NCBI GenBank assembly: GCA_021789975.1 | Contig: JAJYIT010000010.1 | Location: 55,044 to 119,043, forward strand | Length of the DNA: 64,000 nt | Origin: Bacteroidota bacterium | GTDB lineage: Bacteria > Bacteroidota > Ignavibacteria > Kryptoniales > JAKASW01 | Direction of reading: 5' to 3' | Shown: positions 26,830 through 41,232 of the stretch, piece by piece | Layout: each line of letters begins with the position of its first letter | Numbering within the stretch: position 1 is the stretch's first letter | Made by a program: the position numbers and the translations under genes | Notes under the pieces: model-generated | What the model was told of the DNA's origin: nothing | Databases searched by the model: none | Seen by the model: the letters and a program-made list of their open reading frames with translations, nothing else

Positions 26830-26966
26830 GGTAGTGGCTCAGTTTCAATTCACACGTCACCTCGAACCCTGGACTGACACGCTCCAGGTCAGGCTCGTTT
26901 CGGGGTCTAAAACCAGATGTTGAACCGAGTTCACCATGACGGAATACTTCGAAGTGAGCCAGTACC
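26830..26966. mobile_element. 137-bp non-coding mobile element, copy 1 (element A)
   Basis: GGTAGTGGCTCA...TGAGCCAGTACC TIRs; flanks AGAATCTG / AGAATTTG; about 93% identical to 40985-41121. Confidence 0.85.
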
Positions 26967-26975
26967 AGAATTTGG

Positions 26976-27145
26976 GGTGGTGTCTCAGTTTCAGTCTTGG
27001 GAAAGATTCACATGTACTTGTCTAACCGCGAGGCTCACAAAGGACGCGAGGTGTTCTCATTTATTGATTGTGCCTTTGCGGCCTTCACGTTCTTGGCGGT
27101 TAGTTTTCTATTTCTCGAAAGGATTACTCAAACTGAAACACTACC
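26976..27145. mobile_element. 170-bp related mobile element (element B)
   Basis: TIRs GGTGGTGTCTCAGTTTCAGT / GGTAGTGTTTCAGTTTGAGT; perfect 8-bp direct repeat GAATTTGG on both sides; central palindrome 27023-27102. Confidence 0.75.
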
Positions 27146-27278
27146 GAATTTGGATGATGGGAAAATCAAGATGCGATTGGGAATTCAGCATGTTCTCCCG
27201 AAGGGAGAGACGCTGGCAGCAAAAAATCGATCGTGGATGGGAATGGGCCAGGACGCCGGTTATAGGGAGAGAAGCAGC

Positions 27279-39411: not shown

Positions 39412-40728
39412 CTATTTGAGATAATACTTCAGAGGGTTGGGCTGGAGTTTGCATTCCTCCGCGATCCTGAGATATTCGATTTTCTTGTTGTCACGCATTT
39501 TGTAAAGTGCCGGGACAATCCTGTCTCTCAGTTCTACCGGAGTCATCGGGTTGATATAGATACTGGTACCGCCCTCGAATCCGGCGGGCACGTTGATCCT
39601 CCATTTTATGAGGACTCTCCAGGGCATTTTATAGACCGAGTCGATAGGGGTGTAGTACCATTCTTCGTTGCATGAGACGCGCGGACTGGTGGCCAAATGG
39701 ATGGCGTGTACCAGATTGCTCATGCCGCGGACCTCTTCCTCCGTGTGTTCCTGCGGACGAGCGGCCTGCGATTTCGAGTAAATCTCGATCGTCGGAAAGC
39801 GGTGACCTATGCCGACAAACGCGATTGCCGTCTCGTTTTCAGCGAATACCAGGTTTCTCTGGCCCGCGAAGTTCGGCCCGTACTCGTTGAATATATTCGG
39901 ATCCTGACGCACCATCTTGGTCTGCTCAGTTATCGAGGATCCCCATTCATCCAACGCTACCAGCTGCTTGTGAAGATGATCGACAGAAGCTCCGGCAGGA
40001 CTCAACCAGTTCTGGAAAACGCTGATGTATCTTGCGTACCTGTTGGACTGGAACACATCAATCATGGAATCAATCGTGAATCTCATATACTGATAGTGCT
40101 CGTCTGGTGTAAGATCTCCTGAGGACATCAGCTGGTCATCATACTCCGCACCCGGGACGAAATGCCTTTGAGCGATAATAATTTCATGACTTCCGCCGAA
40201 GAACGAGTCTGCGAGGTGAAGTTTTAATTCGAGAGGGGATTTCTCAATCTCTTCCTCTGTCCTACCCAGACGCCCCAACTTAAAATTAATAATGTCGATT
40301 ACGTGCCGAAGACCAACGGGGTTGCCGAGGTAGGCTTCTCTCCATTGCACCTGTCTTTGGGTAAGCTTATAGCCGTAATTCTTCCTCCAGTAATCCAGAG
40401 TCACAATTTCAAAAAGATTCGGTACACGCCGAAAAGTTGGAGCGGTCTCATAGTACTTGTCCGCTGGCAGCGTGTCGATTCTTGTATAAGCATCCCCCTG
40501 TCTTACCAGCCTCGACTTCTCAGGGGGAGTTTCGAAATACCTCTTTTCACAGAAGCTGCAGTAATCTTCCTTGTCCGACGGCTGGATTTTTTTCGCAGCG
40601 GCAGCATATGCATTCAGATTTGGCTTGCCGCTTCTTCCAGGCACAGCCCAAACTTCAGTCTCGGTGAAGGGGCTAATCTGCTTGGTCGTGCCGTCCGGCA
40701 TTATGTAGTAGTAGCTTTCGTAATCCAA
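39412..40728 (-). CDS. DUF4921-like, galactose-1-phosphate uridylyltransferase-related protein
   Basis: CSFCEKRYFETPPEKSRLV, HLHKQLVALDEW; GalT/HIT-like layout. Confidence 0.7.
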   Translation of the reverse strand: MDYESYYYIMPDGTTKQISPFTETEVWAVPGRSGKPNLNAYAAAAKKIQPSDKEDYCSFCEKRYFETPPEKSRLVRQGDAYTRIDTLPADKYYETAPTFRRVPNLFEIVTLDYWRKNYGYKLTQRQVQWREAYLGNPVGLRHVIDIINFKLGRLGRTEEEIEKSPLELKLHLADSFFGGSHEIIIAQRHFVPGAEYDDQLMSSGDLTPDEHYQYMRFTIDSMIDVFQSNRYARYISVFQNWLSPAGASVDHLHKQLVALDEWGSSITEQTKMVRQDPNIFNEYGPNFAGQRNLVFAENETAIAFVGIGHRFPTIEIYSKSQAARPQEHTEEEVRGMSNLVHAIHLATSPRVSCNEEWYYTPIDSVYKMPWRVLIKWRINVPAGFEGGTSIYINPMTPVELRDRIVPALYKMRDNKKIEYLRIAEECKLQPNPLKYYLK

Positions 40729-40984
40729 TTGGGGGTCAATCCAAGATTATCTTGAGAAATTCCTTGAAAATTTAACGCACATCGGGAGAATATACAAAGC
40801 ACCGAAAGCGCCGGTCATACGAGTCCGGTCTCAACCAGAGACTCACTCTTTTCCTTGTCGCATCCGTTCGATAGAATCTTTCGGATTCCCTTAGAATCTG
40901 ATTAGTCTGCCCACCCCCTCTTCTTATGGAAAAACCGGAGGGGCAGTAGCGGTTTACGACTCCGCCGAGTCGATCAACGTCACC

Positions 40985-41121
40985 GGTAGTGGCTCAATTT
41001 CAATTCACACGTCACCCCGAACCCTGGACTGATACGCTCCAGGTCAGGCTTGTTTCGGGGTCTAAAACCAGATGTTGAACCGAGTTCAACAAGACGGAAT
41101 ACTACAGAGTGAGCCAGTACT
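40985..41121. mobile_element. 137-bp non-coding mobile element, copy 2 (element A)
   Basis: GGTAGTGGCTCA...TGAGCCAGTACT; perfect 8-bp target duplication ACGTCACC at 40977-40984 and 41122-41129. Confidence 0.88.
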
Positions 41122-41232
41122 ACGTCACCGACCGGTTTGATTCTCAGGCATACGGGTCTTAATTTTTTCAATCTCGCAGAACCCGGAGAGATCCTTCGGA
41201 CTCCACGCGAGGCAACCCTAACAGAGAGACTA

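Follow-up and report, generated by a model that had tools for sequence, protein, structure and literature searches.

A 137-bp MITE family with IS1-type ends and a cargo of CGTC-tagged palindromes in a member of the Ignavibacteria

The locus and its element

The window analyzed here is a 64,000-nucleotide stretch of contig JAJYIT010000010.1 from a Bacteroidota bacterium of the Ignavibacteria (assembly GCA_021789975.1). Between a minus-strand gene (39412-40728) and a plus-strand isocitrate dehydrogenase-like gene (ATG at about 41233) lies an intergenic element of 137 bp (40985-41121, plus strand), which ends ~112 bp before the isocitrate dehydrogenase ATG. An earlier note, made from the sequence alone, had read it as a non-coding mobile element between perfect 8-bp duplications, and this description holds: ACGTCACC stands at 40977-40984 and again at 41122-41129, and the element is crossed only by short incidental reading frames. 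The same octamer recurs inside the element, at 41009-41016, where the CGTC palindrome described below begins; this is probably a coincidence.

The ends of the element are inverted as claimed, with the left one reading GGTAGTGGCTCA and the right one, as its reverse complement, AGTACTGGCTCA (10 of 12 positions identical). The claim that these terminal inverted repeats (TIRs) are near perfect needs one qualification, in that the right end of this copy starts AGTACT, not GG, and is thus imperfect at its outermost base. In longer form, the left TIR is GGTAGTGGCTCAATTT (40985-41000, plus strand), an IS1-type end, and the right TIR (41106-41121, minus strand) reads AGTACTGGCTCACTCT as its reverse complement, for which the family consensus is AGTACTGGCTCACTTT.

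The interior is strongly structured. The predicted RNA fold reaches -50 kcal/mol (z -4.2) and the DNA fold a z of -4.1, and in neither case did any shuffle do as well. All three nested stems named in the earlier note are present in the DNA fold; of these, the outer two persist in the RNA fold, where the inner one has other pairing partners. What the nested-stem description missed is that, judged by sequence comparison, the interior is a pair of CGTC-tagged palindromes with the tags facing outward, carried as cargo and common to other families of miniature inverted-repeat transposable elements (MITEs). The pair (41010-41096, plus strand), which corresponds to the CGTC superfamily described in PMC3733652, runs CGTC-ACCCCGAA..TTCGGGGT-CT, followed by the inverted partner CGTC-TTGTTGAAC..GTTCAACA-TCT. 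Hairpin 1 (41014-41061, plus strand) is formed by the stem ACCCCGAA/TTCGGGGT and holds in its loop a 27-nt structured insert (CCTGGA..TCCAGG, 41023-41049, plus strand); hairpin 2 (41073-41091, plus strand) is predicted by the fold as TGTTGAAC-CGA-GTTCAACA.

A recent burst and IS1-type elements in relatives

The window's own genome (4.7 Mb, 85 contigs, 98% complete) was searched with the element sequence and holds at least 14 full-length copies, 92-100% identical, whose boundaries coincide with the TIRs in all 14; we refer to them as family A. Each of the 14 is flanked by an 8-bp direct repeat, perfect in 10 cases, with 106 of 112 positions matching overall. The duplication is 8 bp and not 9, given that matching falls to background level on both sides of the eight positions, and the duplicated octamers are unlike one another and have no obvious consensus. 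Each copy is 1 to 8 substitutions away from the family consensus, and of 54 distinct changes, 49 are private to one copy; such a star-like pattern points to a transposition burst. No clear interruption of a long reading frame was seen among the family A copies examined. Together with the absence of a transposase gene from the element, these observations bear out the reading of the element as a MITE.

A second family A copy lies in the window at 26830-26966 (plus strand; target-site duplication AGAATCTG/AGAATTTG). Next to it stands an element of another family, D (26976-27145, plus strand, 170 bp), which has IS1-type ends (GGTGGTGTCTCAGTTT/GGTAGTGTTTCAGTTT), an 8/8 duplication (GAATTTGG), and other cargo; across 26830-27153, the family D insertion overlaps the right duplication of the adjoining family A copy.

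Sites lacking the element can be seen in relatives. The isocitrate dehydrogenase gene and the gene upstream of it are found together in genome G005 and in several other members of the genus, and the element is missing from the orthologous locus in G005 and in the other relatives with a readable upstream region. The G005 intergenic interval is ~143 bp shorter, close to the length of the element plus one duplication, and the alignment resumes at the right-side duplication; the left flank is too diverged for the left boundary to be placed, such that the exact boundary is visible on the right side only. None of the refuting outcomes named in the earlier note was seen, whether a lack of further copies, boundaries at odds with the TIRs, or relatives that carry the sequence at the same site.

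Which transposase could have moved family A? Members of the IS1 family follow the rule of GGnnnTG ends with 8- to 9-bp duplications, and the earlier note had pointed to this likeness. When the genus was searched for paired GGTAGTGTCTCAGTTT ends, an element of 2943 bp came to light (G012:C88, L065:1509-4451), with an exact 8-bp duplication (AAAGTGCC) and TIRs matching at 19 of 20 bases. In all, relatives hold four IS1-family-like elements of 2.8 to 3.5 kb and a 1.56-kb remnant, which resemble family A in their ends and are flanked by exact 8-bp duplications, and some of which contain passenger genes: besides the 2943-bp element, these are G008:C15 (3539 bp), G011:C86 (2774 bp), G004:C4 (3059 bp, with a frameshifted gene), and the remnant G012:C87 (L089:259-1818, 1560 bp). 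IS1-like transposase genes in four same-genus genomes thus sit within GGTAGTG-type ends, and the IS1 likeness stands, with duplications of 8 bp.

The ends that best match those of family A belong to the frameshifted G004:C4 element and to the remnant, whose ends (GGTACTGGCTCA and GGTAGTGGCTCA, within an exact duplication, CACACCCT) closely match the family A end pair; the left TIR of the element in the window agrees at 15 of 16 positions with the right end of the remnant, and the right TIR can be compared with its GGTACTGGCTCAATTA. The remnant's ends also contain a doubled GTGGCTCA motif, with the copies ~20 bp apart.

The 276-aa transposase of G012:C88 scores above the Pfam DDE_Tnp_IS1 cut-off and reaches 63.6 bits against the NCBIfam IS1 equivalog NF033558, for which the cut-off is 100. 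The same holds in kind for all four partner transposases, which exceed the Pfam PF03400 cut-off, fall below that of NF033558, and have the motifs DE, TD, and ERQNLTM in common. The likeness to the IS1 family lies in the DDE_Tnp_IS1 match and the ERQNL...FSK motifs of the transposases and, as in its single-ORF, passenger-carrying members, in the GGnnnTG-type ends (GGTAGTG) and 8-bp duplications that family A displays. In contrast, the family A element is geneless, and the partner transposases, which turned up in related genomes only, lie far from the IS1 equivalog model.

The earlier note had seen no partner transposase, which is true of the window and, by a single-protein search and a profile search, of the whole genome that contains it; an autonomous element sharing the ends is present in same-genus genomes, not in this one by those searches. 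Mobilization in trans is accordingly a proposal that draws on the relatives: their IS1-family-like elements identify the partner type, which would act on family A ends.

Two candidates for such a partner were set aside. An 821-bp end pair (G008:C25) that might have been a small autonomous insertion sequence encodes no transposase and has no duplication. A weak IS1 HMM match in the window's own genome (G000:C49) comes from a different protein, and similar weak matches occur in several members of the genus. This 430-aa protein (G000:C49:81508-82005) has an InsA-type zinc ribbon and a weak Mutator transposase match and may be a domesticated transposase.

The passengers of the partner elements are varied. 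G012:C88 carries a gene for an aspartyl-protease-like (retropepsin-fold) protein and another ORF, and in the remnant G012:C87, what is left of the transposase is accompanied by a DUF6941 protein and a toxin-antitoxin pair of HicA/HicB-like type. In two IS1-type elements of different species, apparently related passenger proteins of ~220 aa that start with TKYPPAL are encoded upstream of the transposase (L085:579-1232 and L087:567-1265).

CGTC-tagged palindromes as cargo

Palindromic repeats with a CGTC tag, stems of 8 to 9 bp, loops of 4 to 5 nt, and a 3-nt tail were described by Di Nocera et al. in 2013 (PMC3733652). They occur in several phyla, including Bacteroidetes, mostly as inverted dimers and often as heterodimers, unassociated with transposase genes and without a dedicated transposase; how they spread was left open, with the suggestion that they may be “mobilized by a broad spectrum of transposases,” and some dimers lying inside palindromes were interpreted as targets (PMC3733652).

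The family A pair shares with these repeats a tag outside an 8-bp stem, a first A-T pair, the inverted heterodimer arrangement, and an intergenic position, and its type has, in unexpanded form, the 5-nt loop (CTTGT) and does not stand beside Y1 transposases. It departs from the published repeats in lying inside MITEs with exact target duplications, in the 27-nt structured insert in the hairpin 1 loop, and in having a C-G second stem pair and a tail of CTA or similar, versus the reported AT and CCA.

The module is not restricted to family A. Elements bearing other ends also contain segment 26-90, at 92-95% identity, and the shared unit is an inverted hairpin pair, GTCA-stem-GAAC..GTTTC-stem-TCT, with the tags outward. 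The listed cores are inverted heterodimers, that is, two different stems in inverted order; they have the CGTC tag and the 8-bp stem, and the loop is 5 nt in unexpanded cores and 27 nt longer in families A, B, and C. The insert is nearly letter-identical in families B and C, and one family C copy (G005:C144) lacks it. Across ten cores, compensatory changes are seen in the hairpin 1 stem, with 15 cells changed on both sides, a count that 0 of 500 shuffles reached, although shared ancestry or hairpin-templated repair can yield the same pattern.

Family B has ends of GGTAGTGTCTCAGTTTTA, exact 8-bp duplications, and the same module. Family C has ends (GAGGCTGTCCCAAAA) unrelated to the IS1 type and is represented by 3 copies in the window's own genome, ~18 in G005, and one in G003; related ends with the cargo occur also in G002, G007, and G049. 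By eye, family C duplications vary, with lengths of 11-14 bp (GTAATACCCGT at L036, ACAATGGATCTATG at L151), and some copies sit in inverted repeats (L031, L175). We also note that G011 has 67 matches to GAGGCTGTCCCAAAA (at most 1 mismatch), which point to a large family with GAGGTTGTCCCAAAA ends and are mostly single ends by this pattern. In G005, L021 and L027 appear to be chimeras of a family C end, a core, and a family A end; given a fragmented metagenome-assembled genome with contig coverage near 1x, these may be assembly errors, and we do not rely on them as proof of swapping.

Nor are IS1-type MITEs tied to one palindrome pair. CGTC pairs within IS1-type MITEs with 8-bp duplications also occur in G006, G008, G002, and G243. 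In G006 and in G243, the latter from another family of the class, the cargo is a different, classical-looking pair (each sequence read from its tag: CGTCATTCCGGC..GCCGGAATCCAG and TGTCATGCCAGC..GCTGGCATCCAG) that does match the reported CGTC form (ATTCC..GGAATCCA), and most copies have exact or nearly exact 8-bp duplications (in G243, 4 of 6 perfect and one 7/8). The G008 MITE has a third type of pair. Among 396 genomes of the phylum, an IS1-type end followed within 8 to 38 bases by GTCAYNCC gave 21 matches, versus 1 for a reversed control, and these fall in three genomes of the genus and one other. Quite different cargo is found in other IS1-type MITEs, namely, family D in the window and elements of G009 and G011.

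All 19 cores detected in the window's own genome lie in MITEs (R1 model, 150 of 579 candidates scored; for building the model, a plain loop took the place of the 27-nt insert in those cores that have it, namely those of families A, B, and C and of G003). Elsewhere, CGTC pairs occur without recognizable TIRs (a tandem array in G002:C73 and pairs in G011:C77, G004:C29, and G008:C8), such that transport as cargo is not the sole arrangement of these pairs; the automatic TIR test around cores is only partly sensitive, and degenerate ends score no better than shuffles. Taken together, the presence of the same cassette in MITEs with unrelated ends suggests that CGTC palindromes move as cargo and that more than one kind of transposase is involved, and the palindromes in these genomes appear to have spread by riding MITEs, without an enzyme of their own.

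Bacterial MITEs as such are well known: Correia/NEMIS, RUP, Nezha, and others are short, non-coding elements with TIRs that are moved in trans. By their descriptions (general knowledge and the text of PMC3733652), they are set apart from family A by different ends and different cargo. The closest parallel is QMITE2 of Coxiella burnetii, a MITE of 150 to 190 bp with 7- to 11-nt duplications that, like family A, encloses a palindromic repeat; its repeat, a REP with a GTAG tag, is used as a target by IS1111, and the available part of the report describes no exchange of REPs between MITE families (PMC5896051). Literature searches, which mostly did not extend to subscription papers, returned no report of CGTC pairs being carried by MITEs of more than one end type that are bounded by TIRs and flanked by duplications, and nothing relevant for strings of the element sequence. 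Family A is a new MITE family of a familiar kind; MITEs, IS1-type elements, CGTC palindromes, and a MITE with a GTAG-type REP were each already known. In units flanked as a whole by exact duplications, CGTC pairs can be seen to travel within IS1-type MITEs, which bears on the question that the 2013 survey left open. The recent burst also offers enough copies to study, in an uncultured lineage, how old MITE insertions are and what becomes of them.

How the elements and their cargo may have spread

The observations outlined above are best explained, and in our judgment very probably explained, by a mechanism in which an IS1-type transposase mobilized family A in trans in one burst and in which the palindromes are MITE cargo that is exchanged between families. 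In this model, a transposase from an IS1-family-like element would bind the GGTAGTGnCTCA ends, and the whole 137-bp unit would be moved into cuts staggered by 8 bp, leaving the 8-bp duplications; the resulting structure is seen directly, and the catalytic step is surmised from it. Family A would have reached its 14 or more sites, most of them intergenic, in a single burst; the transposase that moved it would since have been lost from this genome or would never have resided there. Exchange of cargo between MITEs with unrelated ends would most likely have proceeded by recombination in the shared hairpins. MITE ends would have captured CGTC pairs on several occasions, although free palindromes may instead have been shed from MITEs. 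Speaking against the model are the failure of both searches to find such a transposase in the window's own genome, the remnant or frameshifted state of the elements whose ends match best, the G012:C88 score below the equivalog cut-off, the palindrome pairs outside recognizable TIRs in some relatives, and the diverged left flank in G005.

Could the palindromes instead be the native interior of the element? Family A would then derive from one IS1-type element by internal deletion and decay, as the match of its ends to IS1-type elements might suggest. We consider this improbable: cores occur in MITEs of two or more unrelated end types, IS1-type MITEs hold other cargo (family D, G009, G011), and no core was noticed beside the partner transposase genes, in full elements that lie outside the covariance-model scan.

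It is also conceivable that the copies are retained for a role as regulatory RNA or as terminators, with their hairpins under selection at the sites of insertion. The strong fold, a terminator-like hairpin on the minus strand of the element, and the intergenic position shortly upstream of isocitrate dehydrogenase are all compatible with such a role. Nonetheless, stem positions vary as often as others within the 14 copies (17/700 versus 11/490), and 12 of the 18 changed stem pairs within family A are broken, which argues against selection on the structure after insertion; in addition, the element has no Rfam match, and the same gene stands without it in relatives. We therefore regard a function of this kind as quite improbable.

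The least probable account, and in our view a very improbable one, is that the palindrome pair moves by itself, as a REP/REPIN-like unit under a Y1 RAYT transposase, and was inserted into preexisting TIR-like palindromes: the TIR-free pairs of certain relatives (tandem in G002), the many Y1 transposases encoded in the genus, and the reading of palindrome-enclosed CGTC dimers as targets (PMC3733652) would fit, but the duplications lie outside the TIRs in all 14 family A copies, indicating that the whole unit moved, no strict hairpin motif was found within ~1.5 kb of the Y1 transposase at any of the 30 loci fetched from the genus, and no core of the window's own genome was detected outside a MITE. 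We accordingly rejected a RAYT origin of the core, the 30 Y1_Tnp loci being without it by the strict motif, as well as REPIN/RAYT membership, the tag here being CGTC rather than of the GTAG type and no repeat standing at the Y1 loci.

Returning to trans-mobilized MITEs with exchangeable cargo, can this account be extended to CGTC palindromes at large? They would then be enzyme-less hitchhikers that come to lie between the ends of several unrelated types of transposon, multiply as MITE cargo, and pass from one MITE family to another by hairpin recombination. The CGTC dimers found inside palindromes elsewhere (e.g., in Halothiobacillus neapolitanus) would be further cases of this. We hold this generalization to be an evenly balanced conjecture.

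Some observations on the palindromes stand apart from these arguments. At L178:799-1829 (G002:C73), at least 5 CGTC pairs without TIRs are arranged in two short tandem arrays of 143-bp units. Structured loop inserts are present in other CGTC pairs (L157, L164, L177, L212, L216, and L224), with stems that are changed yet complementary, and in G006 and G243 the loop insert looks like a CGTC-type hairpin in its own right.
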